Below, one piece after another: positions 5,895 through 35,481 of a stretch of DNA of 64,000 bases. A model generated the notes under the pieces. That model made no database searches. It saw only the letters and a program-made list of their open reading frames with translations, and was not told the origin of the DNA. The stretch covers positions 1 to 64,000 of the forward strand of contig CALVHB010000025.1 of the NCBI GenBank assembly GCA_944327275.1. The letters are read 5' to 3'. Every line of letters starts with the position of its first letter. Position 1 is the stretch's first letter. Origin of the DNA: Candidatus Gastranaerophilales bacterium (GTDB taxonomy: Bacteria; Cyanobacteriota; Vampirovibrionia; Gastranaerophilales; Gastranaerophilaceae). The position numbers and the translations under genes are program-made.

Positions 5895-7373
5895 TTAAAT
5901 TTCGGCAATTATGTCAATTTGAGAATTACATCCTATTTCTTCTCTTGATAGTACTGCAATGTTATTCATATAGTTGCTTAATAGAGTAAATATAAGATGT
6001 CTAAATTCTAGCGGTACTAATAATTTTGGATTTTTTACATGCAATTTTTTTACCTGCTTTTCAATTTTTTTTGCAAGTTGTTCTGCAAAATCAGCATCTA
6101 TCCTAATTATAGCATCATCACTTTCATCAAAGTTCGGACAGAATTTATCTAAGGTAGTTTCTGAAATTTCAAACGCTTCAATTATACCATCTTCATTTTG
6201 ATGATTTCTACATATTTGACGTGCTAATGAGAGTCTAATCTTTTTTATTAAATCAGATTTAGAGCTTTCTGCTGCAAAATCATTGATTTTTTCAAATATA
6301 TAGGTAATATCCTTTATTGAAACGTGTTCTCTGATTAAGCTTGTAAGAATAAATCTTAAATCTGACAGGGTAACAAAGTCTGGGATTATATTTGAAACGA
6401 GAAATTCATTAGAATTGCTTACTACATCAATATATTTATCTAATTCTTCATAGTCAAGCAAATCGTCAACGTATTTTACTGCACAGAATTCAAGAGCTTT
6501 TGTAATGTATTCTGCACTAGACAAACCTTTTTCCCAAAAATCTTTTGTGCAAGATTTTTCAACCCATACAACATCTTCTCCGCTAATTTTGTCTACATCT
6601 GAAATTGAATTTTTTATTTTATTTTCAGTATGTAGCTTTTCAGAGTAGAACATAAGATAGTTTGGATAAACTGTTGAACGGAAAACTTCAAGTCCGCGAA
6701 TTTTTATGCTGAATTCATAAGGATTTAGGTTTTCGTCGTCTTGAAAAACTATTTTAGGGATTATAAATCCGAGTTTTTCTGCCAGTTTAAGTCTTAATTT
6801 TACGGTTTCAGAAATTAATTCTTCTTCCATAATTTCTTCATTAGGGTTAATATAACCTAATATTTCTTCACTCAAATGTATTGAAAGTTTTTCTTCTTTA
6901 AGCATTGAATACATTGAGTTAGGAGAAGTTGCCTTTGCAAGTCTTTGTTTTAGTTCTTCAAGTTCTTTCAGTCCTGCAGAAATTTTATCGTTTAATTTTT
7001 TTCTGCTTACTGAAGCTGGAGCTTCTCCTTCTAATTCTGTTTTAATTTTTGCAATTTTATTTTTTTGTTCTCTTATTTTTTCCTGAATTTCTAAGCACAA
7101 ATCATATGGAGATTGTTTTGAAGAAAGCATTTTTTCCATTTGCGTTTTGAACGTTGATATGTTCATAACATCGGAGCTTATTTCATTTCCTGAATATTCT
7201 GCTTCTTTCATAAAAATGCAATGACAAAGTACCTGTCCATCGTCATTTTCAACTTCTTGCATACTATACAACTCCCAATTGTTCATAGACATTTCATTAA
7301 GAAGATTCTGCAACTCTTGGGTGTTGTCACTTGAACAGGTTTTTATGACATATTGCAATTTTTTATTATACAT
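5895..7373 (-). CDS. Soluble FlhA/SctV cytoplasmic-domain-like protein with DUF4177-like N-terminus
   Basis: 492 residues without any transmembrane segment. Residues 1-58 resemble a small DUF4177-type domain (YVIKTC...NNWELYSMQEV...IFMKE). Residues about 95-150 are a charged coiled coil. From about 165 to 470 the chain follows the C-terminal cytoplasmic domain of the flagellar/type III export gate FlhA: IVFQDDENLNPYEFSIKIRG at 208-227, EDVVWVE near 266, IIPDFVTLSDLRFILTSL at 329-346, and RLSLARQIC at 380-388. In true FlhA this domain forms the nonameric substrate-docking ring under an eight-helix membrane channel, which is missing here. GGAG sits 6 bases before ATG. It follows uridine phosphorylase by 10 bases in the bamA cluster. 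Export, scaffold or unrelated reuse cannot be separated from sequence. Confidence 0.75.
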   Translation of the reverse strand: MYNKKLQYVIKTCSSDNTQELQNLLNEMSMNNWELYSMQEVENDDGQVLCHCIFMKEAEYSGNEISSDVMNISTFKTQMEKMLSSKQSPYDLCLEIQEKIREQKNKIAKIKTELEGEAPASVSRKKLNDKISAGLKELEELKQRLAKATSPNSMYSMLKEEKLSIHLSEEILGYINPNEEIMEEELISETVKLRLKLAEKLGFIIPKIVFQDDENLNPYEFSIKIRGLEVFRSTVYPNYLMFYSEKLHTENKIKNSISDVDKISGEDVVWVEKSCTKDFWEKGLSSAEYITKALEFCAVKYVDDLLDYEELDKYIDVVSNSNEFLVSNIIPDFVTLSDLRFILTSLIREHVSIKDITYIFEKINDFAAESSKSDLIKKIRLSLARQICRNHQNEDGIIEAFEISETTLDKFCPNFDESDDAIIRIDADFAEQLAKKIEKQVKKLHVKNPKLLVPLEFRHLIFTLLSNYMNNIAVLSREEIGCNSQIDIIAEI

Positions 7374-7383
7374 TGGGTACTCC

Positions 7384-8157
7384 TTAATTTTGTTTATCTT
7401 GAGAAATTAAGATTTTTAGTGCTTCTATTGCAGTTTTTATTGCTTTATCGGTATCATGAACTACAGGATTTTCAAGACCTTGTTTTTCTCTCTCCTGATT
7501 TGCAACAGTTAAAAATACTGAACCGACTCTAACCTTTAAAAGGCTTGCGACAATAAATAATGCTGCAGATTCCATTTCAGAAGCTAAACATCCAAGCTTT
7601 TTCCATGCTTCCCATTTATTCATAAGTTCATAGCATACAGGCATTTTTTCTGGGGTATGTTGCCCATAAAAAGAATCTTTACATTGGACGACTCCTGTAT
7701 GATATTCATAGTTAAGATTTTTTGCAGATTGAACAAGAGAATTTGTAATTTCAAGATTTGCAACTGCAGGAAATTCAATAGGAGCATATTCCTTTGAAGT
7801 TCCTTCCATTCTTATGGCTCCGGTTGCAATAACAATATCTCCGCCTTTTACGTTTATGTCCATACCGCCACATGTACCAACTCGAATAAACGTATCGGCT
7901 CCCACATTTACAAGTTCTTCCATTGCAATTGATGCAGACGGACCTCCTATACCGGTAGATGTTACGCTGACCTTTTCACCGTTCAAATATCCGGTATAGG
8001 TGACGAATTCTCGTCTGTCTGCAACCAGTTTTGCATCATCAAAATATTCGGCAATTTTTTTGCACCTCTTGGGATCACCAGGCAAAATTATGTACCTGCC
8101 GACGTCACCGTCTACTAAGCCAATATGATACTGTTCATTATTTTCCGAATATTTCAT
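7384..8157 (-). CDS. udp: Uridine phosphorylase
   Basis: 257 residues, the normal length for the NP-I nucleoside phosphorylase family. It converts uridine and phosphate to uracil and ribose-1-phosphate. Visible motifs are ILPGDPKR near the N-terminus (phosphate binding), [22 protein letters not shown] (phosphate/ribose site), and SEMESAALF (the Glu-Met-Glu ribose-binding motif). The alternatives are other NP-I enzymes; the GDPKR and TGIGGPS segments favour Udp. It sits 15 bases after ompH and 10 before the FlhA-like gene, so it is probably read from the bamA promoter. Confidence 0.9.
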
Positions 8158-8172
8158 TATTTTCTGCCTTCC

Positions 8173-8631
8173 TTAGAAATTTCCGCTTTTTAGTTTTTGG
8201 ATTACTAAATCAGAAATATCTACACCACCTACAAATATTACTCTGTAATCAACTACAGCATCAAGTTTTTGTTCTACAAGAACTTGTTTTGTAGCTGCTT
8301 GAATTTTATTGTATACTTGTTCTTCTTTTTGAGATTTTAACTTCATATACGCATCTTCTTTTAATTTGAATTCGCGAGCAGTTTGTTCTTCAAAATTTTG
8401 TTTTTTCAATGGTGTATCTAAAGATTTGTATTGTTTTTCTTTATCTACCATATATTGTTGCATTTCTAGAGCTTTTGCATCAATCTCTTTGATAGCTTGT
8501 TGTGCAAAAGGGAAATTGTCTTGCACTTTTTGGTAATTGATATATCCAACTCCTGCGGCATCAGCTTGATTTGCAAAAGTTAAAAACAAACCTGCTGTCA
8601 TTAAAAGTGCTGCTAATTTGAATTTTTTCAT
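8173..8631 (-). CDS. OmpH/Skp family periplasmic chaperone
   Basis: 152 residues. An N-terminal signal peptide ends near AFA/ADAA (hydrophobic LAALLMTAGLFLTFANQADA). The mature part begins VGYINYQKVQDNFP, the typical OmpH start, followed by a long Lys/Gln/Glu-rich helical hairpin and a short C-terminal strand region. Skp-type proteins hold unfolded outer-membrane proteins in the periplasm and deliver them to BamA, which is encoded directly upstream. TAGGAGG before the ATG is a strong ribosome binding site. Confidence 0.85.
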   Translation of the reverse strand: MKKFKLAALLMTAGLFLTFANQADAAGVGYINYQKVQDNFPFAQQAIKEIDAKALEMQQYMVDKEKQYKSLDTPLKKQNFEEQTAREFKLKEDAYMKLKSQKEEQVYNKIQAATKQVLVEQKLDAVVDYRVIFVGGVDISDLVIQKLKSGNF

Positions 8632-8657: not shown

Positions 8658-10616
8658 TTAGTACATTATGTCGCCTACACCAAAAGTAAAGTAACCGTTT
8701 CTGTTGCCGTTGTCTCCAGGGTTTGTAAGAGGAATACCATAATCGATAGATAAAGGTCCCATACCAGGAATGTACAATTTTAAACCTACACCGGCAGATA
8801 CTGCATAAAGCGGTCTGTCATATATTTGGTCTGTAATTGATGGGTTAAATATTTTACCTGCATCAGCCCAGACAGTGAATCTTAAGTTATTTAAGAAGTT
8901 AATTCTTGTTCTATCTAAGAATGGAATTGGTGTTGCAAATTCAGCACTACCCATGATGAACGCATCACCTGTACCTACACCACTCATTTTGAAACCTCTT
9001 ATGGTGTAAGGTCCACCAAGTCTGTATGCCATTACCTCAGGCATATTATCCCCGTGAAGTTTACCGCCACCTTTTGCAGTGAATGATAACGAAGATTTTT
9101 TACCAACAGGAATGTATTGTTTAACCATACCTGTTAATTTTCCGTGTGTTTTGTTGAAGTCTATTATGCCTATTTCTTCATCAAACCTTAAACTTGCCAT
9201 TGTACCTTTTCTAGTTACAGTTGCATTGTCACGAGTGTCGTACAATAGTGCAGGACTCAATGAAAGGAATAGACCACCTTCCAACTGTTTAGCACGTTCT
9301 GAAATTGGAATATTATATTTAGAATACAAGCTGCTGATTTTATTCCAATCACCTTCAGAAACATCAATATTTTCTATACCAAGTGAGAATGTTGATGTTA
9401 CATGTTTATTACTTTTCATTCTATGCGCAACAGTTGCTTCTGCTCCTATTCTGCGTTCAATTGCCAAAGGAACCTGATAGCTACCGAAGTCTCTGTAGAA
9501 TATTTTACTCATTAAAGAAGTATCAGCATTGTAGAAATAAGGTTTAAAATAGCTTAATTCTGCTTGTAAATTCATTCTACGTTTTATAGATGCATCGTTT
9601 AAAATTACACCTGTACCGGCAATACCATTCAATGCAAGTCTTTCATTTCTACCAAGGAAATTGTTATCAGCAATACCAACTGATCCAAATACACCGGTTA
9701 CTGAGTCAATACCTCCGCCAACGGAAATACTTGCAGTTCTTTGTTCTTCGATATTTATTGTAATATCGTATTTGTCAGGATCTTCTGTTGGTTCAATTTC
9801 TCTTGTAACATCTTTGAAAGCTTGTGTTGCGTATAATCTTACAAGATCTTCTTTTAACAAATTTTCATTATAAATCATTCCGGGTTCGGTCAAGATGTTT
9901 CTTTCGATAACGTAATCTTTTGTTTTTTCGTTTCCGGAAATTAGGATTTTATTGATAGTTCCTTCTTTAATACTGATATTTACTGTTCCATCAGGATCGT
10001 CTGAAACTGATTCGATTCGAGCAAGAATGTATCCTTTTGAACTGTAGCAATCTTGAATTTTTGCAATTGCTTCGTTAATTTGAGCAATATTTTGAGGCTT
10101 GCCTTTCATCGGTAAAAGGTAAGTTAGTATTTCATCTGTAGAAATAACGGTGTTCCCCTCAATTGTGAAATCCGTTATTGGAGCATTTTCTTCCAGAATA
10201 ATTTTTAAGGTAACAGTTCCATCATGGTTATTAATAGGGATAGCTTTCATTTTTTCTGAGAAATAACCAAGTTGATATATCGCTTTTAAATCTCTTCGAA
10301 CAGCGTCTCTTGTGTATTTATCGCCTTTTTGCATTTTCATCTGTTCAAGAATAAGAGATGTATCTATAACGTTGTTTCCAAGGATTTCAATATTTTTAAT
10401 TGTCTTTGTTCCGGCAGTATTTTCGGTAGTGCTTACTGATGCTGATGTAGTTGGAGTTTCATTCCCAAATTGAGTGGCAGCAGGCGGTTGAAGATTGTGC
10501 ATTTCAGGATTAGCATTGCTATCCCAAAAATCATCTTGAGCTACACCCTGTAATGGGGACATCATAACCAACAGCAGGGTTATTAAAGATATATGTATTT
10601 TGTTCAATAAATTCAA
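8658..10616 (-). CDS. bamA: Outer-membrane assembly protein BamA (Omp85 family)
   Basis: 652 residues. Signal peptide (LLNKIHISLITLLLVMM...VAQ), a low-complexity linker to about residue 70, then three POTRA-like repeats (starting near TIKNIEILGNNVID, APITDFTIEGNTVI, TINKILISGNEK), and a C-terminal 16-strand-type barrel. Barrel signatures are LFLSLSPALLYDTRDN, the lid-loop motif RGFKMSG and GPLSIDYGIPL. It folds beta-barrel proteins into the outer membrane, so the organism has one. Three POTRA domains rather than five is as in cyanobacterial Omp85. The start appears to be TTG at 10616, with GGTAGAG a few bases upstream. First gene of the bamA-ompH-udp cluster. Confidence 0.92.
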   Translation of the reverse strand: MNLLNKIHISLITLLLVMMSPLQGVAQDDFWDSNANPEMHNLQPPAATQFGNETPTTSASVSTTENTAGTKTIKNIEILGNNVIDTSLILEQMKMQKGDKYTRDAVRRDLKAIYQLGYFSEKMKAIPINNHDGTVTLKIILEENAPITDFTIEGNTVISTDEILTYLLPMKGKPQNIAQINEAIAKIQDCYSSKGYILARIESVSDDPDGTVNISIKEGTINKILISGNEKTKDYVIERNILTEPGMIYNENLLKEDLVRLYATQAFKDVTREIEPTEDPDKYDITINIEEQRTASISVGGGIDSVTGVFGSVGIADNNFLGRNERLALNGIAGTGVILNDASIKRRMNLQAELSYFKPYFYNADTSLMSKIFYRDFGSYQVPLAIERRIGAEATVAHRMKSNKHVTSTFSLGIENIDVSEGDWNKISSLYSKYNIPISERAKQLEGGLFLSLSPALLYDTRDNATVTRKGTMASLRFDEEIGIIDFNKTHGKLTGMVKQYIPVGKKSSLSFTAKGGGKLHGDNMPEVMAYRLGGPYTIRGFKMSGVGTGDAFIMGSAEFATPIPFLDRTRINFLNNLRFTVWADAGKIFNPSITDQIYDRPLYAVSAGVGLKLYIPGMGPLSIDYGIPLTNPGDNGNRNGYFTFGVGDIMY

Positions 10617-20210: not shown

Positions 20211-21557
20211 ATGGATGGTTTGGATACAAGCAGAATTGATGACCTCAAGGTGAGGGTTAAAAATAAGTTGAATGAGACAGAACTTTTTCAGTATAAGGGG
20301 TCTGTATCTAAACTTTTGGGCTTGACTGTTGAAGTAAAACTTCCCGGGTTGAAAATTGGTGATTTGTGTTACATTGAGACTTATGATGGTCGTAAAAAAC
20401 CTGCTGAAGTAGTAGCTTTCAAGGGTGAAGTTGCACAGTTGCTATTGCTGTATGATGGAGAAGGTATAGGACAGGGGAGTCTTGTTACTACTACAGGAAA
20501 GCCTATTATTATACCTGTTGGAGATTTCTTGTTGGGAAGACTGATAAATCCTATGGGCGAGCCTATAGATGGACGTCCGCTTGATACCACAGGTGCAACT
20601 TGGCGTCCTGTTGAAGGACCGCCTCCGGGACCTTTTGAAAGACCTATTATTACTGAGGTCTTTTCTACAGGAGTAAGAGCGATAGACAGCTGTATGACTA
20701 TGGGTTGTGGTCAGCGCTTGGGGTTGTTTGCAGGCTCAGGAGTTGGGAAAAGTACTCTTTTGGGTATGATTGCAAGGAATTCCGATGCTGATGTGAACGT
20801 TGTAGCACTAATCGGAGAACGTGGTCGTGAGGTTAAAGAATTTGTAGAGGACGCCCTTGGAGAGCAAGGTATGGCTAAATCAGTGCTTGTTTGTTCTACA
20901 GGTGATCAGCCTCCATTGATTCGTCAAAAAGCCTTGTTGACTGCTACTGCTGTATGTGAGTATTTTAGGGATCAAGGAAAAAAAGTTTTCTTAATGACTG
21001 ATACTGTTACTCGTTGCGCGATGGCCGGGCGTGAAGTTGGTTTGTCTATCGGCGAGCCGCCTACTATGAAAGGATATCCGCCTTCTATTTTCTCTTGGTT
21101 GCAAAAAGTTTTAGAACGTGCCGGTAATAGTCCTAAGGGCTCTGTAACAGCTTTGTATACTGTTTTGATGGAAGGTGATGATATTTCAGATCCTATTGTA
21201 GATATTGTTCGTGGTATCGTTGACGGGCACATTTTCCTTTCAAGAAAAGTTGCTGAAATGAATCATTATCCCGCAATTGATGTTTTGGGAAGTATTTCAA
21301 GGCTTATGTCTTCTATTGTTACGCCAGAACATAGGGAAGCTGCAGGGAAAATGCGTGCGATTATGGCTTTATACAGAGAAAATAAAGATTTGATTGATGT
21401 TGGTATGTATCAGCCTGGGACTAACCCTAAGTTGGATATTGCTATTGAAATGATGCCGAAAATTAATGCATTTTTGCAACAGAGAACATCGGACATTGTG
21501 AGTATGGATACTACGATTAGTACGCTTGTAGATATGATGAGGGGTGTCGATATTTAA
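20211..21557 (+). CDS. fliI: FliI/SctN-type export ATPase, orphan
   Basis: 448 residues, full length for the flagellar/type III secretion ATPase. Walker A GSGVGKST at 175-182; LIGERGREVKEFVED; Walker B region KVFLMTDTVTRCAMAGREVGLSIGEPP; YPPSIFSWLQKVLERAG. The N-terminal part follows the beta-barrel domain of this family, with GDFLLGRLINPMGEPIDG. In flagella and injectisomes it forms a hexamer that unfolds substrates at the export gate. No FliH, FliJ, gate or basal-body gene is nearby. The only other type III-like gene seen here is the FlhA C-domain protein at 5.9 kb. Rho and F1-beta are excluded by the family-specific segments. Confidence 0.9.
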   Translation: MDGLDTSRIDDLKVRVKNKLNETELFQYKGSVSKLLGLTVEVKLPGLKIGDLCYIETYDGRKKPAEVVAFKGEVAQLLLLYDGEGIGQGSLVTTTGKPIIIPVGDFLLGRLINPMGEPIDGRPLDTTGATWRPVEGPPPGPFERPIITEVFSTGVRAIDSCMTMGCGQRLGLFAGSGVGKSTLLGMIARNSDADVNVVALIGERGREVKEFVEDALGEQGMAKSVLVCSTGDQPPLIRQKALLTATAVCEYFRDQGKKVFLMTDTVTRCAMAGREVGLSIGEPPTMKGYPPSIFSWLQKVLERAGNSPKGSVTALYTVLMEGDDISDPIVDIVRGIVDGHIFLSRKVAEMNHYPAIDVLGSISRLMSSIVTPEHREAAGKMRAIMALYRENKDLIDVGMYQPGTNPKLDIAIEMMPKINAFLQQRTSDIVSMDTTISTLVDMMRGVDI

Positions 21558-24827: not shown

Positions 24828-26336
24828 ATGGAAGTAGCTTATTATAATTTATCCGGTGGTATTAATCAGGCTCTTACAAAAACAGAACTTGGGATTGATA
24901 CAAAAAAAATTTATTGGGCGGATTCTGAGAATGTTGAAATCTTTCAAAATAGAGGCATCATAAAGCAAAAGGGTAATATCTTGTTTAAAGAAATTGGAGA
25001 AGAAATTACCGGAATGGCGGAGATGGATGCGTATGATATAAAAAAATTAGTCATTACAACTGTATCTGGTAAGATTTATATCTATGATAATAGAAATGCA
25101 AGTTTAAATTTGGTTGAAAAAACTTTAACAGGGGTAAAGCCTGTATTTTTAAATTTTTTAAACGGGATATTGATTATTACAGAAGCAGATGGATTATTTT
25201 ATATAAAAAATAATGAGACTTATGATGTTGTAGATTGTAATTTGAAAGATTTATCCCAAAATACACTTGTAGGGGGTGTACTTGCGGTATATAAGGGCAG
25301 AGTATGGGTGGCTAAAGATGCAACTATTTATTATTCTGCGTTAGGTACTTATGATGATTTCTCATCTGAAAATGATGCAGGATATATAAATGAGTTTCAT
25401 ACTGATACAGGTTCAATTACTGCGCTTATGCCATATAAAGATTATTTGGCAATTTATAAAAATGACAGTGTGTATTTATTGACGGGTGTAAGTCCTGATG
25501 ATTTTGCAATTACTCTTTTTGCAAACAAGGGCGCTGTCGCTCCGAATTCTATTGTCAATGTTGAAAATAAACAATATTTTTTGAGCAATGGGATTTTTGC
25601 TCTTGAACAAGTTGGAGAATTAAATCAAATACAATTAGGAAGTGAAATTTCGTTAAAAATAAAGCAGGAATTTTCATTGTTTGGTTATTTGCAAAACACT
25701 TTTTGCTTGCATTATGAGGCGAAATCTCAAATGTGGTATTTCTTTCCTTATGCAGATGATGAATATTTTCATACTGTATGGATTAATGATTATGTTAATA
25801 AATCTTGGTATAAGAGGGTGATTCCTCAGGATATAGTCTGCGCTTGTATATATGACGGGGAGATATACACTGCTGATAAATCCGGAAATATTTACAGGGA
25901 AGGTATGGGGACATCTTTTAATGGCAGTCCAATAAAATTTATGTGGAAATCGCCTTTTCTTGCTATATCAAACCCTCATCGTAGAAAGTTAATTGATGAA
26001 TTTTATTTTTTACTTGATACTGAAAATGATAACGATTTTAATTTTTCTGTTTACAAAGATTATGATAGCGAGTTTATAGATGATGTTGAGAGAATATACT
26101 CTGTTCATCAAGATCATTTGGTTTGGGCTGATGAAAACACATCTGAAAAATTGCCTTGTAAGTGGCCTTTAGATAATGAAAATGTACCTATATGGTCTAT
26201 AAACAAAGATACTATGGAAAAGGCTGAAATATCTGAATCTAATTATTCTGTACAAATATGTGTAACAGGGGAGGAATTAGCTCAATCTTGTGCAATTATT
26301 GGTCTGCAATTTAGAGAAGTGTATGAAGACGATTAG
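24828..26336 (+). CDS. Probable phage tail nozzle / DNA-stabilisation protein (P22 gp10 or T7 gp12-like)
   Basis: 502 residues, almost all beta strand, with repeats of about 40-50 residues that look like propeller blades (KIYIYDNRNASL, LFYIKNNETYDV, VWVAKDATIYYS, SVYLLTGVSPDDF, GIFALEQVGE). Size, fold type and the presence of an adaptor, portal and P22-like coat protein in the same cassette suggest the short-tail nozzle that plugs the head after packaging. Sequence identity to named phage proteins cannot be judged by eye. It starts 3 bases after the endolysin stop. Confidence 0.6.
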   Translation: MEVAYYNLSGGINQALTKTELGIDTKKIYWADSENVEIFQNRGIIKQKGNILFKEIGEEITGMAEMDAYDIKKLVITTVSGKIYIYDNRNASLNLVEKTLTGVKPVFLNFLNGILIITEADGLFYIKNNETYDVVDCNLKDLSQNTLVGGVLAVYKGRVWVAKDATIYYSALGTYDDFSSENDAGYINEFHTDTGSITALMPYKDYLAIYKNDSVYLLTGVSPDDFAITLFANKGAVAPNSIVNVENKQYFLSNGIFALEQVGELNQIQLGSEISLKIKQEFSLFGYLQNTFCLHYEAKSQMWYFFPYADDEYFHTVWINDYVNKSWYKRVIPQDIVCACIYDGEIYTADKSGNIYREGMGTSFNGSPIKFMWKSPFLAISNPHRRKLIDEFYFLLDTENDNDFNFSVYKDYDSEFIDDVERIYSVHQDHLVWADENTSEKLPCKWPLDNENVPIWSINKDTMEKAEISESNYSVQICVTGEELAQSCAIIGLQFREVYEDD

Positions 26337-26392
26337 GAAAATCCACACCACTCATATTAATATTACTTAGGAAAAAGAAAGGAAAAGAAATT

Positions 26393-27247
26393 ATGACAAA
26401 TGCTTATTCTGCATTTATTCCGGAAATTTGGAGCCAAAAATTAAGCTATATGCTTTCAAAAGAATGCGTAATGCTTCAGTGTGTTAACAGAAATTGGGAA
26501 GGTGAAATTAAGAATCAAGGCGATAAGGTTAAAATTATTACACCTGCTGAAGTTACTATTTCAACATTGAGTGATTCTAATATTGAATACAACGAGTTGA
26601 CACCTACTGCGCAGGATTTATTAATTGATCAACAAAAATTCTTTGCTTTTAAAATTAATGATGTTGCTCAAGCTCAGGCTAATACTGATATTATGGAAGC
26701 TCATTTGAAAAATGCTAAAAAAGCTATTGAAGAAGTTCAAGATTCTTTCATTTTGTCTTTACATAAGGATGTTGATTCTAAAAATATTGTTGGTTCTGAA
26801 GAAGCTGCTGTTACTCTTGATAAATCTACTGTTTATTCAAAATTTGTTGAATTAGCTTTGTGTTTGAAAAATTCTAGCGCAGTAACAAGCGGTGTCAGAC
26901 CTTGGGTAGTTATTAACCCAACTATTGAATCTTATTTGTTACAAAGCTCTGAGTTTATAGGTGCTCACAATGTTGCTGATGAAACTTTGAGAGAAGGTGC
27001 AATTGGCAGAATTGCAGGCATGGATGTACTAGTTAGTTCAAATTTAACAGATGTTGCAGGTAAATATTATGTTCTTGCAGGTACTAATGAAGCTATTACA
27101 TTTGCATCTCAATTAGCAAAAATTGAAAGTCTTAGAGATAAAGATAGCTTTTCTGACTTGGTTAGAGGCTTATACTTATACGGTGCAAAAGTCGTTCAAC
27201 CTAAAGCTCTTGCTAAAATGGTTGTTACAGCTCCTGCAGCTGCATAG
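26393..27247 (+). CDS. Major capsid protein (P22 coat-like, HK97 fold)
   Basis: 284 residues. The N-terminus AYSAFIPEIWSQKLSYMLSKECVMLQCVNRNWEGEIKNQGDKVKI is typical of P22-type coat proteins, and the C-terminal half contains GRIAGMDVLVSSNL and KYYVLAGTNEAITFASQLAKIES. No maturation protease is fused or adjacent, matching P22-like phages that use a separate scaffold. A very strong AAAGAAAGGAAAAG ribosome binding region and a stable hairpin after the stop suggest high expression. It should form the icosahedral head. Confidence 0.88.
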   Translation: MTNAYSAFIPEIWSQKLSYMLSKECVMLQCVNRNWEGEIKNQGDKVKIITPAEVTISTLSDSNIEYNELTPTAQDLLIDQQKFFAFKINDVAQAQANTDIMEAHLKNAKKAIEEVQDSFILSLHKDVDSKNIVGSEEAAVTLDKSTVYSKFVELALCLKNSSAVTSGVRPWVVINPTIESYLLQSSEFIGAHNVADETLREGAIGRIAGMDVLVSSNLTDVAGKYYVLAGTNEAITFASQLAKIESLRDKDSFSDLVRGLYLYGAKVVQPKALAKMVVTAPAAA

Positions 27248-27269
27248 GACTTTTTTATTTATCCCTGTA

Positions 27270-27300
27270 TGCATCTTCGATATTTTTTATCGAAGGTGCA
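27270..27300 (+). other. Strong hairpin downstream of major capsid gene
   Basis: TGCATCTTCGAT (27270-27281) pairs with ATCGAAGGTGCA (27289-27300) with one G-T wobble and a T-rich loop. No T run follows, so it is more likely an mRNA stabiliser or partial attenuator that raises capsid levels over the downstream genes. Confidence 0.55.
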
Positions 27301-27327
27301 TTGTATTAAATATATTGAGGTAAATTT

Positions 27328-27564
27328 ATGTTTGACAGTTTGAAATCAACTATTAAGGAATTAGCCAAAACTGCAGTGATAAAAGCCGAAGAAGCTTTAG
27401 GTAGTCAAAAAGGGCAACAAAAAAAGGAGATGGCTATTGAATACATTGTGAGTAATATTCCTGTAATAGGTTTTTTGAAACCGCTAATATCTATGTTATT
27501 GTCCTCATTTATTGATGATGCTGTAGAATTCGCGGTTGAATACATGAAAAGTGAGGTATTATGA
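27328..27564 (+). CDS. Putative LL-H-type phage holin
   Basis: 78 residues. An amphipathic N-terminal helix (KSTIKELAKTAVIKAEEALGSQKGQQKKEMAIEYI) is followed by a hydrophobic stretch (IPVIGFLKPLISMLLSSFI) and a C-terminal helix (DDAVEFAVEYMKSE). The order of A-E-x-A-L-G-S-x-x-G-Q-x-K-K-E and a terminal A-V-E helix resembles LL-H-family holins, which make membrane lesions that let the endolysin out. Its position away from the endolysin is unusual. The stop overlaps the next start (ATGA). Confidence 0.55.
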   Translation: MFDSLKSTIKELAKTAVIKAEEALGSQKGQQKKEMAIEYIVSNIPVIGFLKPLISMLLSSFIDDAVEFAVEYMKSEVL

Positions 27565-28214
27565 ATCCAGTAAATAATCAAAATGTTTCATCCTATGCCG
27601 AAAATCAATCTGCGGCATTTGGTCAACAGCCTGTAGGTAATGATATTGAAACTTACAAACAAATGGCTGTTAGAGATTTAAAAGTGATTGAAAATCTTGT
27701 AAAAACAGGAGTTATGACCGAAGAACAAGGACAAAATTTAATGAATTATGTTACTAAAAAGGCGTTTGAAAAGTATACATTAAGTCAGCAAAATGGTCAG
27801 GTTCCTGTATCTACACAAGCTGCTGTAATGCCTGTTCAAAATTCCGAAATGTCCGTTTTATCCCAAATGCCGGAATTCTTTAACAGAGAAGGAAGACTTG
27901 ATGTTTTTGATTACTTGAAAAATGCAAATGTTAATGTTGATCAGGATGAGATCTCTAAAATATCTGCATTGGTAGAAAAAATTGAAAATTCTGCTATAGC
28001 CAGGTATTTGAGAGAAAAAGAACACGAAAAAACATTGAATAATGAAAATGAAGCCGCTAAACAGAGATTGAGAGCTAATGCTCAAAATGCTGTGTCTGAC
28101 GGGAATAAAAATTTGGTTTTCACTCGTGAACAAATCGGCAAAATGAGTGGTGCGGAATTTGCTAAATACGAACGTATGATTATGGATCAATTAAAAAAAG
28201 GTCTTATTAAATAG
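27561..28214 (+). CDS. Probable capsid scaffolding protein
   Basis: 217 residues, helical, Gln/Asn-rich at the N-terminus and with no membrane segment. The C-terminus (FTREQIGKMSGAEFAKYERM, then QLKKGLIK) is the type of short basic helical module by which scaffolding proteins bind coat subunits. Neighbouring the coat gene fits. Overlaps the holin-like gene by 4 bases; followed by a terminator. A minor head protein is the main alternative. Confidence 0.65.
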   Translation: MNPVNNQNVSSYAENQSAAFGQQPVGNDIETYKQMAVRDLKVIENLVKTGVMTEEQGQNLMNYVTKKAFEKYTLSQQNGQVPVSTQAAVMPVQNSEMSVLSQMPEFFNREGRLDVFDYLKNANVNVDQDEISKISALVEKIENSAIARYLREKEHEKTLNNENEAAKQRLRANAQNAVSDGNKNLVFTREQIGKMSGAEFAKYERMIMDQLKKGLIK

Positions 28215-28236
28215 CAATATTCAAAAATCTTTTTTG

Positions 28237-28267
28237 AAAAAACAGTCTTTTTATAAGACTGTTTTTT
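28237..28267 (+). terminator. Terminator inside the cassette, after scaffold gene
   Basis: AAAAAACAGTCTT (28237-28249) pairs with AAGACTGTTTTTT (28255-28267) around a short loop. It splits the cassette into an early block (lysis, nozzle, coat, scaffold) and a later block (adaptor, terminases, portal). Confidence 0.9.
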
Positions 28268-28295
28268 CTTAAAGATTTCTAGTGAAAGGAAGTTT

Positions 28296-28934
28296 ATGAA
28301 TTATTTAGAATTGATAAATAAATGTCTTGTTGAACTTAATTATAAACAAGTTAGTGCTTTTTCAGAATTGACAAAGAATGAGCATAAAAAATTGAAAAAT
28401 ATATTAAATGTTTTGAATACAGAGATTTGTGGGAGTGACAGATGGAATTTTCTTTTGAGAAGAAAAACAGAAATTCTCCCTAAAAATACAGGAGAAATTC
28501 AAAACAATGTAGAAGGAAGAATAGAGACCGTTATTGTCGATGGAGTAAAATTTGATTTCTATGAAGATTTTGAAAAGTTTTTTGTTGATTCTCAGACTCA
28601 AAATACTTATAGTGTTTTTAATGATAAGATTTTGTTTCCGATTTTTGATAAAGACAAGACTGTAGAAATTGTTTATTACACAAAAAATTGTGCTAAGGAC
28701 TCTGAAAATCAAGAAAAATTTTCGATGGAAGATGCTTTAGATGCATCTTTGATTCCTGATCCGTACGTGGAACCTCTTTTGGTTTATGGTGCTTGTATGA
28801 GATTAAAAGGGAATCCGCAAAATGTCAGATTTAGCTATTGGTACAGTATGTATAAGGAGGCATTGGCAAATTTAAGGGCGAGAGTATCTCCAAGTATAGA
28901 TGATTCCCCTTCTGTGAAACTTCATAGAAAATAG
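28296..28934 (+). CDS. Head-tail adaptor protein (P22 gp4 / T7 gp11-like)
   Basis: 212 residues. The start NYLELINKCLVELNYKQVSAFSEL, then KKLKNILNVLNTEICGSDRWNFLLRRKTEIL, is the recurring pattern of podoviral adaptor (tail tubular A/gp4-like) proteins, with alternating helices at both ends and a beta-rich middle. It would form the ring joining portal and nozzle. AAAGGAAG lies before the ATG. Confidence 0.78.
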   Translation: MNYLELINKCLVELNYKQVSAFSELTKNEHKKLKNILNVLNTEICGSDRWNFLLRRKTEILPKNTGEIQNNVEGRIETVIVDGVKFDFYEDFEKFFVDSQTQNTYSVFNDKILFPIFDKDKTVEIVYYTKNCAKDSENQEKFSMEDALDASLIPDPYVEPLLVYGACMRLKGNPQNVRFSYWYSMYKEALANLRARVSPSIDDSPSVKLHRK

Positions 28935-29096
28935 TGCACAAAAAAAACAGGAAGTTTAAAATTCATTTCCCCTCCTGTTAAGATTTACACTAGCCGAAAT
29001 ATAAATAGCATGTCTATTATACAATTTTTTTTAAGAAAATACAAATAATAAGAAGATTTGTAACGAAAATACATAATTAGTAAATAAAAAAATATT
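28935..29096 (+). other. Non-coding gap inside cassette
   Basis: 162 bases without a coding signal. AACAGGA (about 28948) and TCCTGTT (about 28973) can pair across about 20 bases but have no T run. Several TATTAT/AATAAT stretches lie before the small-terminase ATG, which lacks a clear Shine-Dalgarno sequence; a promoter here is likely but cannot be placed. Confidence 0.4.
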
Positions 29097-29534
29097 ATGA
29101 ATCATTTAACCCAGCAACAAAAAAAATTTGTTTTAGAATATATTAAATCCCTCAATGGTGAACTTTCAGCTAAAAAAGCAGGATATAAATCTAAAAATTT
29201 AAAAGAGACAGCAAGTGAACTTTTAGCAAAAGATGCAATTATCCATGAAATCAAAACTCAGATAAAAAATCAGATTTCGTCTTTAAGAGTTAATAAAGGA
29301 TATGTAATTCAAAAATTGTTAAAGATTGCGGAATTTTCCTTGGAAGAGGAAGATATTTTGGATAAAGACGGTTCTATTACTGGTAAAAAGAAGTTGAGAG
29401 ATACATCTGCAGGATTAAAAGCTCTTGAAAGTTTATGTAAGTATTTGGGATTTACAGCTGTTCAAGATGAGGAAGATGAGTATAAACAGGCAAAAATTGT
29501 TACTATTTCCAATCTTGACGATAGTAAAATTTAG
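29097..29534 (+). CDS. Terminase small subunit
   Basis: 145 residues. N-terminal HTH typical of small terminases: LTQQQKKFVLEYIKSLNGELSAKKAGYKSK, then a helical oligomerisation region (NQISSLRVNKGYVIQKLLKIAEFSLEE) and an acidic C-terminus. It recognises DNA to be packaged and presents it to the large subunit. If the cassette is a gene-transfer agent, this protein would set packaging specificity. Confidence 0.85.
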   Translation: MNHLTQQQKKFVLEYIKSLNGELSAKKAGYKSKNLKETASELLAKDAIIHEIKTQIKNQISSLRVNKGYVIQKLLKIAEFSLEEEDILDKDGSITGKKKLRDTSAGLKALESLCKYLGFTAVQDEEDEYKQAKIVTISNLDDSKI

Positions 29535-29555
29535 TTTACTTATAAGGAGAATTTT

Positions 29556-29906
29556 ATGAAAAACAACGATGCTGAAGCTATGCTTTTAAATAATGCATCT
29601 TTAGAAGATCTTATAAAAATGAAAATCGAAAAAGAGTTTATGAATGATTTGAAAAAGTCAAAAGAAAAGCCGTCTAAAAAAGAATATCTGGATATAAAAG
29701 ACATACCAAAAGATAAAATATTTTCTAAAGATTCTATTTTTAGATATTTTAGCAGAAAAACAGGATGTGAAACTTTTATAAACGGTATTCAGGCAGAAGC
29801 TTTAGTCGGAGTACAAAGACATCTTAGGAATCAAATATTGAACGGCAGGCTAAATGCTTTTACGACTGATGATGCTTATGTGAAGTTTGAGAAAGCAGTG
29901 TTTTAA
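29556..29906 (+). CDS. Unknown cassette protein between terminase small subunit and GNAT
   Basis: 116 residues, strongly charged, with Lys-rich middle (KKSKEKPSKKEYLDIKDIPKDK) and a C-terminal globular part (TGCETFINGIQAEALVGVQRHL). TAAGGAGAA precedes the ATG. I do not recognise a family. It overlaps the GNAT gene by one base (TAATG), so the two are co-translated and may work together. Confidence 0.6.
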   Translation: MKNNDAEAMLLNNASLEDLIKMKIEKEFMNDLKKSKEKPSKKEYLDIKDIPKDKIFSKDSIFRYFSRKTGCETFINGIQAEALVGVQRHLRNQILNGRLNAFTTDDAYVKFEKAVF

Positions 29907-30406
29907 TGACGGAATTTAAAAATCCATTTGAAAAGTCTGCTTATTTTGAGCAGGCATTATTTTTGTATATAAAACATTCAAAATTTTTAGATGATGACTA
30001 TGCCTCTGATGGGAAATCAGTGTATGAATATTTCTACAATTTGGTGTGCAGAACTTTACCGTTATTTTTTGTGATAACAGAAGGTGATTGTGTTAGCGGA
30101 TTCGTATATTTAGACAATATAATTGGAAATAGTGAAAACTTGCATAGTGCAGAACTTTCTACCTGTTTTGACAGAAAATTTTGGGGTGATTATACAAAAA
30201 AATGTGCCAAATTTTTCATAGATCATTGTTTTCAAAAATATGGTTTTACGAAAATTAAGGCTCAAGTTTATCCTGAAAATTGCAGAGTCAAAAACCTTTT
30301 AAAAAATGCGGGATTTAAAAAAGAAGCACTTTTGAAAGGTGAGACTTTAAGAGGCGGAAAATTACAGGATATAGAGATATATTCTGTATTCAACAAGGAA
30401 AGGTGA
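29906..30406 (+). CDS. GNAT acetyltransferase encoded within the cassette
   Basis: 166 residues. The C-terminal half reads as a RimJ/RimL-like GNAT: KFFIDHCFQKYGFTKIKAQVYPENCRVKNLLKNAGFKKEALL, with the N-x-x-x-x-x-L-L-x-x-A-G-F signature. The acetyl-CoA phosphate loop in front is degenerate. GNATs appear in several phage genomes between packaging genes, with unknown targets; acetylating a coat, tail or host protein is possible. The start overlaps the preceding stop. Confidence 0.75.
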   Translation: MTEFKNPFEKSAYFEQALFLYIKHSKFLDDDYASDGKSVYEYFYNLVCRTLPLFFVITEGDCVSGFVYLDNIIGNSENLHSAELSTCFDRKFWGDYTKKCAKFFIDHCFQKYGFTKIKAQVYPENCRVKNLLKNAGFKKEALLKGETLRGGKLQDIEIYSVFNKER

Positions 30407-30410
30407 TGTA

Positions 30411-32075
30411 ATGAAAATAGAAACAGAAGATTTAACTCAGGAACTTTCTTCTACGGAAGAACTTTTTTTAGTTGGAAATATTACCCAAAAATACGACAGG
30501 TTTAATGATCAAAGAGCCACTCAGTTGAGTGATATGAAATTTGTAAGGGATGCTATTTACAACACAGATATTCCTAAAATTGACGGTTGGGACAACAAAA
30601 TAGAGCTGCCGGATATTTATGAGTTGGCACAAACTTTAAAATCTCATATTAGTCAAAATTTATATTCTCATCCGGATGCAATGTTTGATGTTACCGGAAC
30701 AACTCCAAATACTCAATCTTTTGCTAATAAGCAGAAAGCAATGCTTGTCAATACTTTCGAGAATATGAAAATTGAAGATGAAATTGAAAAAGTTATTGAT
30801 GGGATAGTTGAGACCGGTGAAAGCACTCTTTTTGTCGGTTGGGAGACTAAAATAAAATCAGTAAGGCGTCCTCAAACTTTTGAAGAACAAATTTTGAATC
30901 CCGAAAAAAGAGGATTTACTATTGATGAAAAAGTTATTTATGATAACGCAAAAGTAAAACACATCAAGGCAGAGGACTTTGTATTCGATAAATATAACAA
31001 GGAAAATTGGGACAAATGTGCAAAGATTTACAGAACATATTCAACTATTGATGAATTGTTTTCTGACAAGGCAAATAATTTGTTGGATGAAAGAAAATTG
31101 GAAGTATTGAAAGGAGTGGTGGCTGGTAAAAAATATCCGAATAATGATGATAATGATGGAGCTGTAGAAGGTAAAAAAGTAGAAATACTTGAATATTGGG
31201 GTGATATTGAACTTTCAAACGGAAAATTATTGAAAAATTGGTTGATAGTTGTAGCTGCAAGAAAAGAGATTATTAGATTTGAAAGTAATCCGTTTGTTAT
31301 AAATCCGTTTATTCATGCAAATATTATAGAATCCCCTCAGACAGGAAGAGGAATTTCTCCTTTGCGTGTTGCTTTAATTTTGAACAATATTGCATCAACT
31401 ATTTTAAATAAACAAATTGATGCTCTTGCATTGATGATGAATCCTCCTTATCTTGCACCGAAAGGTTGCTTTAAAGGTCAGCAAGATGTAAGACCGGGTA
31501 AAATTATAGAGTATGATGCTGCTCTTATGCCTACTGCTCCGACGCCTTTATCTTTTGATAAAGCTATGGTGGGTTGGGATTTCTTGAATTATTTTAAATC
31601 AACAATTGAAAGTGCAACAGGTATTTTCAAAAATATGGCAGGGAATCTCCAGTCTGCAGAGCGTACTGCTACAGAACTGAATTATTCGGTAAGCGGACAA
31701 GAAGCAAGACTCAATATGATTTTGGATTCAATAAACAGAAAAATTATAGTGCCAATGGTCGAAAAGACTGCTGAAATAATATCGTATTTTAAACTGGGGT
31801 CTGAAATTATCGGAGTCAATGATAGAGGAAAAACAAGTTTTCTTGAAATAACTGATGAAATAAGAAGCGCAAATTATGTTTATCGATATGGTGATCGAAA
31901 AGCGACATTTGAGCGTAAAACAAAATTAAAAGAATTATTTGCGGTTGTTCAATCCTTTGCTCAGGTACCTGAAGTTGAAGAAAAAATAGACTGGTTAGAA
32001 TGCTTTAAATTTGCTCTTGAACAATATGGAATAGAAAATGCAAATAATTTTTTATTAAATGATGACGAATCATAG
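30411..32075 (+). CDS. Phage portal protein (podovirus type)
   Basis: 554 residues. Portal rings form the head vertex through which DNA enters. Segments RVALILNNIASTILNKQIDALALMMNPPYLAP and SAERTATELNYSVSGQEARLNMILDSINRKIIVPMV match the stem and clip helices of P22/phage-type portals. An N-terminal wing region includes NKIELPDIYELAQTLKSHI. Immediately followed by the large terminase, its usual partner. Apparently intact. Confidence 0.85.
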   Translation: MKIETEDLTQELSSTEELFLVGNITQKYDRFNDQRATQLSDMKFVRDAIYNTDIPKIDGWDNKIELPDIYELAQTLKSHISQNLYSHPDAMFDVTGTTPNTQSFANKQKAMLVNTFENMKIEDEIEKVIDGIVETGESTLFVGWETKIKSVRRPQTFEEQILNPEKRGFTIDEKVIYDNAKVKHIKAEDFVFDKYNKENWDKCAKIYRTYSTIDELFSDKANNLLDERKLEVLKGVVAGKKYPNNDDNDGAVEGKKVEILEYWGDIELSNGKLLKNWLIVVAARKEIIRFESNPFVINPFIHANIIESPQTGRGISPLRVALILNNIASTILNKQIDALALMMNPPYLAPKGCFKGQQDVRPGKIIEYDAALMPTAPTPLSFDKAMVGWDFLNYFKSTIESATGIFKNMAGNLQSAERTATELNYSVSGQEARLNMILDSINRKIIVPMVEKTAEIISYFKLGSEIIGVNDRGKTSFLEITDEIRSANYVYRYGDRKATFERKTKLKELFAVVQSFAQVPEVEEKIDWLECFKFALEQYGIENANNFLLNDDES

Positions 32076-32128
32076 TGCCGCTAATGCGGCACTATAAACT
32101 ATTAAGGGTTAGTCTGTTATAGGAGATT

Positions 32129-33418
32129 ATGTTATATAAATTATTAAAAGCTCAGCGGGAATTTTTGGAAATCCCGCATGATTACACATTGGATGTTGCG
32201 GTGTATCAGGGAGGTTATGGGTCTGGGAAGACTTTTGCAGGTTCGCTTTTAGGGATATTACTCGCTTTAAAATTCCCGGGGGTGCGAGGTTTGGTAGGTG
32301 CTCAGACCTACACTCTTGTTAGGGATACAACCTTGCAGACATATTTTGAACATTTAGAAAATTTTGGGTTTATTGAAGGAAAAGATTACGAGTGGTCTTC
32401 CTCTTTGCAAAAATTGACTTTTAAAAATGGATCAGAGATTCTTTTTAGACATTTTGATGAACCGAATAAGTTAAAATCTTTGAATCTTGGGTTTGTGGAA
32501 ATTGAAGAAATGTCTGATATCCCTTATGATACTTTTAAGATGCTTTTAGGTCGTATGCGCCAAAGAGTAAAAAAGGTATGGAAAAACTTTACTTACAGAA
32601 TTTTTGGACATACTAACCCTGAGATGCAAAGAGGATGGGTTTACAAAACTTTTATAGAAAATCCTGCACCTAATTACAGGTTAATTACAGCCCCTACAAC
32701 TCAGAATATTTATCTGCCTGAAGGTTTTTGTGATGAATTAAAAAAATTATATGATGAGCAATATTACAATATATTTGTGTTAGCTCAAAATGGAGAGTAT
32801 AACAATGGGCTTGTGATAAAAGATTTTGGGAATGATAACATAAGAGATATTTCATATCAGCCGGATATGGATTTGCATATATCTTGTGATTTCAACGTTG
32901 ATCCGATGTGTTGGGTATTTGCTCATAAAACTGATGATAAAGTTTTTTATTTTGATGAAATTGCGATGGAGAACACTACAACCGCTAAGGCTTGTGATGA
33001 ATTTTACAGGCGTTATCCGAATCATAAGGGTAAAGTTATTGTAAATGGTGATGCATCAGGAGATAACAGGAGTTGTACAAGTGAATATACTAATTACGTG
33101 ATAATAAAGAAAAAACTTTTGCAATATGGATATGATGTTGAAATCCAAATTAAGGCGTTTAATCCTCCTATTAAAAATCGAATTATGGCTTTTAATTCAA
33201 AAGTAAGATCTGCTGATGGGGAAGTTTGTCTTTTTGTCGATAAAAAATGCGAAAAACTTCTTTATAATATCTACAATTTAAAATATAAGGAAGGAACTTC
33301 GAAAATAGATATTCCGACATATCAACAGATTAAACAGTCAAAGGAACTAAAATTTTTATCTCACCCAATGGATGCAGCTTCTTACCTTGTCGATTTTTAT
33401 TGGCCTATTACACTCTAA
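32129..33418 (+). CDS. Terminase large subunit
   Basis: 429 residues. ATPase domain: Walker A GGYGSGKT at residues 28-35 and Walker B-like GFVEIEEMSD. RNase H-like nuclease domain: Asp in SCDFNVDPMCW, VNGDASGDN, and Asp in SHPMDAASYLVDF. It cuts concatemeric DNA and drives it into the head. AGGAG before the ATG. All catalytic residues expected are present, so the motor is likely functional. The packaging mode (cos, pac or headful) cannot be told from sequence alone. Confidence 0.92.
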   Translation: MLYKLLKAQREFLEIPHDYTLDVAVYQGGYGSGKTFAGSLLGILLALKFPGVRGLVGAQTYTLVRDTTLQTYFEHLENFGFIEGKDYEWSSSLQKLTFKNGSEILFRHFDEPNKLKSLNLGFVEIEEMSDIPYDTFKMLLGRMRQRVKKVWKNFTYRIFGHTNPEMQRGWVYKTFIENPAPNYRLITAPTTQNIYLPEGFCDELKKLYDEQYYNIFVLAQNGEYNNGLVIKDFGNDNIRDISYQPDMDLHISCDFNVDPMCWVFAHKTDDKVFYFDEIAMENTTTAKACDEFYRRYPNHKGKVIVNGDASGDNRSCTSEYTNYVIIKKKLLQYGYDVEIQIKAFNPPIKNRIMAFNSKVRSADGEVCLFVDKKCEKLLYNIYNLKYKEGTSKIDIPTYQQIKQSKELKFLSHPMDAASYLVDFYWPITL

Positions 33419-33777: not shown

Positions 33778-35481
33778 ATGGGATTGGCAGCTTCACAAGC
33801 AAGATTTTTAGCCATAACATCAAGAAAGATGAATTGCGAATTTCAGTCTATGCAAATTGCGCAAGAAAAACTTTCTGTTACACGTGATCTTCAGGCAGCA
33901 TCTCAAAAGTACCAAAATTCTTTAAACGCAACAAAACTTGTATGGGATACTGATGCAGATGAAGTATATGATTTGTCATATGATATTATGATGAATCCTT
34001 CTGCATTGAATGATTACAATCCTTATTTGATTACTGATACGCAAGGGAAACTTGTACTTTCAGAAAAAATGTTTCAAGCAGCTGTTACAGCTGGAATTAT
34101 TGATAAAAACGGTGATCCTATTCAAGGGGCTTCTTTATTTACTGAAGGTGCTGCTGATGCAAAGGGTGATGGTTCTCGTAACGCATTTTTGAATGCACTA
34201 GGTGAAAGAGGACAAGTTAGTCAATCAACTATCGATTCTATAACTAAATTAGAAAATAGTTATACTAAATCAGGAGTTGGTGGAGATATCTTAGATAAGA
34301 CTATTGCTAATGCACTTACTTCTACAGCGTTTATTTCTGAATTAAAGAGTAAATATGATAAAACTGAAGAAGGGCATGAAGCAGGTGATTTAAAATATCA
34401 ATTGGATTTGATTAGTTTACTTGGAGATAAAGATGGTAACGGAGAAGTGACTGATGATGAAATCAGCAGTACTTTCTGTTTTACAACATCTCCGGATCCT
34501 GAAAAAGATAAAGGTAAGTTTATAATTACTAATAATGGTCAAGCATTAACTAAAGATCAGTTGCAAAACTTATCTTTGGGTGACATTTTGAGTGGAAAAT
34601 ATGCTATGACAGTTGTTGGAACTCAGGATTTAGCTCCTACTTCTGAAAAAGCTTTGTATGAAATGGCAAAACTTCTTGGGTATGAGTCCGGAAGCAGCGT
34701 GCCTAACGGTGTAGGACTTAATGTTGACAGTGAAGCTGCGGATGCATTATCCCAAGCTATTAGTTTTACTTTATTGAATATAACAGGGCCTGATGCAAAG
34801 GCTGTTACAACTGGCGGTAATACATATGAAGCTATTACAAATGCGGCAAATGAGTCCCAAAATTACAATGGTATTGTTATAAGTGATAAACAGCACGCGT
34901 CTATCAGTTTGACTAACTTGTTGAAATCTTATTTAACAAACTTTGCAATAGCAATAGATGGTTTTTCAAATACTCAGTTTATGGTTTCAGATAAAGTTTC
35001 TGATAGTGTATTTGCAACCGATGATTTGAATTATACATTCCTCATAGAGGAAAAAGATGCTATTACAGAATCCGATGTGTTGACTGCTGATTTTTATAAC
35101 CAGTTGTATAACCAATTATGTATGAATGGTGCAACTTCTGATGCAATAAAACGAGAAAAAGTAACTGATCCAGAGTATCTTTCTCAGGCAATAAAGAATG
35201 GACAATTGTTTATATCTTCATTGAATACTGACGGATATTTTTACCAAGGCGCATATACTTTGAACGGATATGTTGCAGAAGTTGCTGATGAGGATGCAAT
35301 TGCACAAGCAGAAGCTGAATATGAAACAACAAAAGCTAAATTGGATTATAAAGAACAAACACTTGAATTGAAAATGAAAAATATTGATACTGAATTATCA
35401 GCTTTGACTACAGAATATGATACAGTCAAGAACTTGATAAACAAAAATGTAGAAAAAGTATTTACGATGTTTAGTACATAA
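33778..35481 (+). CDS. Lineage-specific protein with flagellar/type III axial-like ends
   Basis: 567 residues, no signal peptide. The N-terminal 50 residues ([17 protein letters not shown], then [17 protein letters not shown]) and C-terminal 60 ([19 protein letters not shown], then [18 protein letters not shown]) are amphipathic helices, like the paired terminal coiled coils of flagellar axial and some type III-exported proteins. The middle is Asn/Gly/Thr-rich and holds [12 protein letters not shown], an EF-hand/dockerin-like calcium loop at about 213. Family identity is not proven. The absence of a Sec signal with a surface-type composition is compatible with non-Sec export. AAAGGAAAA precedes the ATG. 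Confidence 0.55.

Follow-up and report, generated by a model that had tools for sequence, protein, structure and literature searches.

A soluble paralogue of the FlhA cytoplasmic domain in Gastranaerophilales, encoded beside bamA and ompH

To our knowledge, FlhA/SctV has always been described as one membrane protein of the secretion gate, its soluble part forming the docking ring. In CdsV, contacts between SD1 and SD3 stabilise the closed ring, and the ATPase stalk protein is bound in the SD4-4 cleft (PMC7584215); domain motion is switched by the GYXLI motif (PMC9431611). In injectisomes, the soluble, mobile sorting platforms of the cytosol (SctQ and partners) handle substrates away from the membrane gate (PMC10769875); these resemble the role that we propose below, but are built from different proteins. 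The partial flagellar gene sets of the bacteria considered here have been interpreted as incomplete or lost flagella (PMC3787301, Di Rienzi et al.; PMC4040986, Soo et al.). In the open-licence papers that we searched, we found neither a soluble FlhA paralogue nor a type III secretion system (T3SS) of Melainabacteria described. Here we describe such a paralogue from a 64-kb stretch of DNA (the window; 64,000 nucleotides) of a Candidatus Gastranaerophilales bacterium, a member of a gut-dwelling, non-photosynthetic group related to cyanobacteria: cut loose from the membrane and carrying a new N-terminal domain, it offers a natural test of what FlhA-C is able to do without a channel.

Architecture and genomic neighbourhood of the soluble paralogue

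The protein (Table 1) matches the Pfam FHIPEP profile over residues 137-481, corresponding to profile positions 307-653 of 657, with 170 bits (cut-off 29.1), which places it in the superfamily, and phmmer relates it to the B. subtilis FlhA-C structure 3mix (E 1.4e-23). It scores 164 bits with TIGR01398, the FlhA equivalog model, for which 772 are required, and thus lies outside the equivalog. An AlphaFold2 model computed from an alignment of 49 orthologues (mean pLDDT 80.3, mostly 83-95 in the FlhA-C part, with weak loops near residues 171-180 and 411-430) superimposes on 7amy with Z 28.6 and an rmsd of 3.0 Å over 325 residues (VIA) and recovers 6ch2 at 2.6e-21 (Foldseek). The best 23 structural matches of the model are exclusively FlhA/SctV-C, so that all four FlhA-C subdomains are present. 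An FlhA/SctV C-domain had been read from this open reading frame in an earlier note, which named a different predicted fold as the outcome that would speak against it; the profile and structural matches bear that reading out. With the FlhA/SctV cytoplasmic domain (7amy, 6ch2, 3a5i) the protein shares the four subdomains, the linker and the SD3 motif E-x-V-S-I-K-D-I, but differs in lacking the membrane domain, in its changed GYXLI and F459/T490 positions and in a strongly diverged SD4.

Residues 1-160 contain no membrane helix (the highest 19-residue hydropathy is 0.22, whereas the full-length FlhA of the same genome reaches 3.0) and the profile match is confined to the C-part, so that the eight-helix membrane domain of the export gate is missing. 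In its stead, the model predicts a small domain (residues 6-57) with strands at 6-14, 34-42 and 48-57 and a helix at 18-30, followed by helices at 72-83, 89-115 and 124-148. The replacement of the membrane part by a small domain and a coiled coil, as the same note had it, is therefore upheld as regards the absent membrane helices and the predicted small domain and helices, but the DUF4177-like identity given to the small domain fared less well: weak matches to this profile were obtained for 16 of 35 orthologues, the best at E 0.0067, and the window's copy gave none at E 0.5. A fold search with the N-terminal domain returned no decisive match (best Z 6.5), and we set aside the KCTD5 C-part, dodecin and GNAT as sharing merely a common arrangement. 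A FliJ-like identity for the helices was likewise rejected, as no alignment was obtained when the profiles were compared (probability 0.1; the system's FliJ profile comprises 2 sequences only). We conclude that this is a real, conserved protein, a cytosolic paralogue of the docking domain of the export gate.

The gene occupies the last position in the order bamA-ompH-udp-paralogue, in keeping with its earlier assignment to this cluster, and the gaps of 26, 15 and 10 bp suggest that the four genes are co-transcribed. At the 103 loci compared, the same strand carries ompH in 85 cases, bamA in 83 and udp in 77 (udp being present at 78). In distant genera (44-54% identity; e.g., L071, L100), ompH precedes the paralogue and udp is absent; the bamA-ompH neighbourhood is missing at about 18 of the 103 loci, largely from more distant genera, and was not seen in the most distant ones.

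Table 1. Coordinates of the soluble paralogue, its predicted parts, its neighbours and T3SS genes (positions refer to the window unless a locus is named)
Feature	Coordinates	Strand	Evidence or remark
Soluble FlhA-C paralogue	5895..7373	-	492 aa ORF, stop codon within coordinates; FHIPEP 1.1e-49
N-terminal beta-alpha-beta-beta domain, residues 1-60, weakly DUF4177-like	7194..7373	-	AlphaFold2 model
Three predicted helices, residues 72-148, two long, at the place of the membrane domain	6930..7160	-	AlphaFold2 model
FlhA linker and four-subdomain FlhA-C, residues 151-492	5898..6923	-	Foldseek, VIA
SD3-equivalent, about residues 306-384, contains LIREHVSIKDITYIFEKINDF, best-conserved part	6222..6458	-	Entropy, identity
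udp-like nucleoside phosphorylase	7384..8157	-	PNP_UDP_1 2.9e-44; 10 bp upstream of the paralogue
OmpH/Skp-like chaperone	8173..8631	-	OmpH 9.6e-10
BamA (Omp85)	8658..10616	-	Omp85 7.8e-43 and POTRA repeats
FliI/SctN ATPase	20211..21557	+	ATP-synt_ab 5e-82, T3SS_ATPase_C 5.8e-28
Compact second-T3SS operon, G012	L218:5663-15001		Gene names by eye

The paralogue occurs in 141 of the 146 genomes of the family (order Gastranaerophilales; 41 genera), with 37-81% identity to the window's copy. The five genomes without it (G002, G003, G031, G079 and G089) are 98, 93, 63, 89 and 94% complete, respectively; its absence from G002, G003 and G089 (93-98% complete), in which a full-length FlhA is present, and from three genomes of the sister family f2 indicates that it is not indispensable. 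Judging from a within-genus dN/dS of about 0.04, a value that is indicative only as dS is saturated, it is under purifying selection. In a search across the phylum, the sampled genomes devoid of any FHIPEP protein included many complete ones from other families, which we take to be photosynthetic cyanobacteria.

A second, flagellum-like type III secretion system

The earlier note was wrong in placing the gene far from any flagellar gene, as a FliI/SctN ATPase is encoded in the same 64-kb window and a full-length FlhA elsewhere in the genome. This ATPase accounts for the one T3SS_ATPase_C match found in the window's genome and was therefore assigned to a second, flagellum-like T3SS. The gene inventory of this genome, drawn from family searches and individual stretches of sequence, comprises family matches for FlhA, FlhB, FliP and FliI, FliQ and FliR beside fliP (read by eye) and a FliH-like gene adjoining the full-length flhA (by eye; FliH was confirmed by Pfam in the congener G006). 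The genome search that the note had recommended thus recovered every gate component named in it, including a full-length FlhA, and its term "orphan" is apt for a gene unlinked to those of the gate, but not for a genome that retains FlhA, FlhB, FliP, FliQ, FliR, FliH and FliI homologues, i.e., the export apparatus, of a second T3SS. Rod-type proteins were also found for this system, as were FliH, FliE and FliF at a congener locus (L063; confirmed by Pfam) and a FliM/N-like protein in the window's genome (L097; Pfam). Flagellin and FliG_C gave no match in the window's genome (93% complete) or in G006 (99% complete), and are absent too from most other sampled genomes carrying the second FliP type alone; the system therefore lacks the rotor FliG and the flagellin filament of a bacterial flagellum.

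FliP and FlhB were present in all 40 sampled genomes of the family, and flagellin in 17, all of which carry a second FliP and a higher-scoring FlhA, with FliG in 16 of these 17; these counts indicate that flagellated members possess two systems and the others the second system alone. A view of the latter comes from G012 (99% complete, without flagellin or a FliG_C match), where a compact operon encodes, in order and as named by eye, two flgG-type proteins, FlgB, FlgC, a 216-aa lytic transglycosylase-like protein, FliE, FliF, a 319-aa protein, FliH, FlhA and FliI. The 319-aa protein occupies the position of FliG, and its 338-aa counterpart at L063 has no Pfam match. From gene content, we infer that much of the subset formerly counted as "incomplete flagella" is a separate, maintained secretion system, apparently present in nearly all gut Gastranaerophilales including the non-flagellated ones, the substrates of which could bear on the interplay of these gut bacteria with their neighbours or host. 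At 8 of 103 loci, fliI is no more than 10 kb from the paralogue, and in 3 genera fliP lies no farther than about 11 kb from it; as the genes of the second system are scattered over at least five places, we judged such linkage too weak as evidence of function.

The window additionally contains a prophage-like head and packaging block (24828-33418), flanked by the fliI region on one side and a secA-like gene on the other, with matches to a major head protein (1.1e-47), a head-tail adaptor (9.2e-32) and a terminase (1.5e-35). A 567-aa protein (33778-35481) has no Pfam or PHROG match; N-termini resembling its own (MGLSASQIRYL, MGLIASQIRLL) occur beside second-T3SS loci (L106:14484, L063:871), and it is possibly a member of a family of candidate secreted substrates.

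Origin and residue conservation

A phylogeny of 55 FHIPEP C-parts recovers its 25 soluble paralogues as a single clade (100/100) whose sister is the full-length second FlhA of the family itself (G000 C31; L001; support 99/97), and the FlhA of the sister family branches outside both (99/95). This position shows that the paralogue is an old duplicate of the flhA of the second system that arose in an ancestor of the family, with some caution due to its long stem (1.64 vs 0.29 in the full-length sister), which also marks its faster evolution. These nearest full-length relatives have the linker P-x-x-M in common with it, but are 27% identical over the C-part; L001 retains the membrane domain, adjoins fliH and evolves slowly.

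Deeper relatives encode further soluble FlhA-C proteins, namely HTH_17 fusions in the genus g46 (L192, L193; HTH_17 4.2e-13), a stand-alone copy (L191) and proteins of about 600 aa with an FlhA-C stretch (L196-L198). The fusions resemble our protein in joining a soluble FlhA-C to a new N-terminal domain; however, that domain is DNA-binding, and they are of separate origin. Grouping the soluble paralogues with the HTH fusions was disfavoured (p-AU 0.014), and a single origin of these two and the stand-alone forms was rejected (p-AU 0.0016); soluble FlhA-C paralogues thus arose separately in related lineages, two being fused to a DNA-binding domain. One fusion (L193:7315-8556) directly adjoins a fliP-flhB cluster in divergent orientation. 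In a family that branches more deeply, FHIPEP C-part paralogues also occur as adjacent pairs (L195:6651-9577, L194:3-2140), some with N-termini that appear hydrophobic by eye.

Residues of 25 soluble paralogues were mapped on E. coli FlhA. The boundaries of the linker and the point where FlhA-C begins follow PMC9431611; for the other subdomains we used limits that we take to apply to this fold. Conservation is highest in SD3 (entropy 1.09; 25% of columns reach at least 90%), with E349, S352, E361, N364 and D365 invariant, and this subdomain is also the one most similar to the full-length paralogue (36% identity); SD4 is the least conserved (entropy 2.02; 6% of columns reach at least 90%). R391 (R194) is invariant as well. 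At the GYXLI position the paralogues have S-E-E and two hydrophobic residues, and in the dimple D456 persists in 24 of 25, F459 is replaced by T or S, and T490 by R or K in 20 of 25. In the full-length second FlhA, the GYXLI glycine is retained and the tyrosine is not, and positions 459 and 490 are Y and T, respectively. As neither the switch nor the dimple is kept, canonical docking by the soluble paralogue is unlikely, and the combination of conserved SD3 and R391 with altered GYXLI and dimple suggests that ring packing may persist while client binding has changed.

Candidate roles

We tentatively favour, at a little short of an even chance, the proposal that the paralogue serves the second, motor-less secretion system as an accessory ring or as an adaptor for substrates, a link to export that derives from its homology. 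In the duplicated flhA, a small alpha/beta domain and helices took the place of the membrane helices; the product would self-assemble into, or dock onto, an FlhA-C-type ring through the retained SD1/SD3 packing surface; its altered dimple and diverged SD2 and SD4 would bind clients other than chaperones of the FliS/FliT/FlgN type, such that substrates are gathered, held back or handed over in the cytosol. The oligomeric state or the partner might be set by the N-terminal domain and helices, and co-transcription with bamA and ompH would couple the amount of the protein to envelope growth. Co-occurrence of the paralogue with the second system does not discriminate, since the latter is nearly universal in the family, and the absence from some nearly complete genomes, a bamA-ompH neighbourhood that is not one of export genes and evolution faster than that of its sister count against this proposal. 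A bolder form, in which a free cytosolic nonameric ring is a detachable substrate-docking platform of the motor-less, flagellin-less system across Gastranaerophilales, one of several soluble gate paralogues that evolved repeatedly, appears doubtful to us.

It is rather unlikely that the protein is instead a regulator or decoy that binds the chaperones or substrates of the gate and signals, via its N-terminal domain, their free or occupied state to gene expression or another process. The separately evolved g46 fusions with HTH_17, one of them divergent beside fliP-flhB, are consistent with such a function, and we know of no catalytic DUF4177-like domains; however, our protein has no DNA-binding domain, two of its three dimple residues are changed, and the HTH fusion was found in a single genus among five genomes searched in its family and, given the rejected common origin, is an analogue and not a homologous intermediate. 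The frequent same-strand ompH and bamA genes, the retention of ompH ahead of the paralogue in distant genera that lack udp, the loss of GYXLI and the divergence of SD4 would suit an FlhA-C fold repurposed for envelope biogenesis with BamA and OmpH, with no role in type III export. This we regard as improbable, as about a sixth of the loci, largely from more distant genera, lack that neighbourhood, SD1, SD3 and the linker remain close to the export-gate paralogue, and no envelope protein with an FlhA-C fold is known to us. The published view of partial flagellar gene sets as flagellar loss would make the protein a relic of a decaying flagellum, which is very improbable for one with a complete fold that is retained in nearly all genomes of the family under a low dN/dS (with dS saturated); moreover, the flagellated members keep it too.
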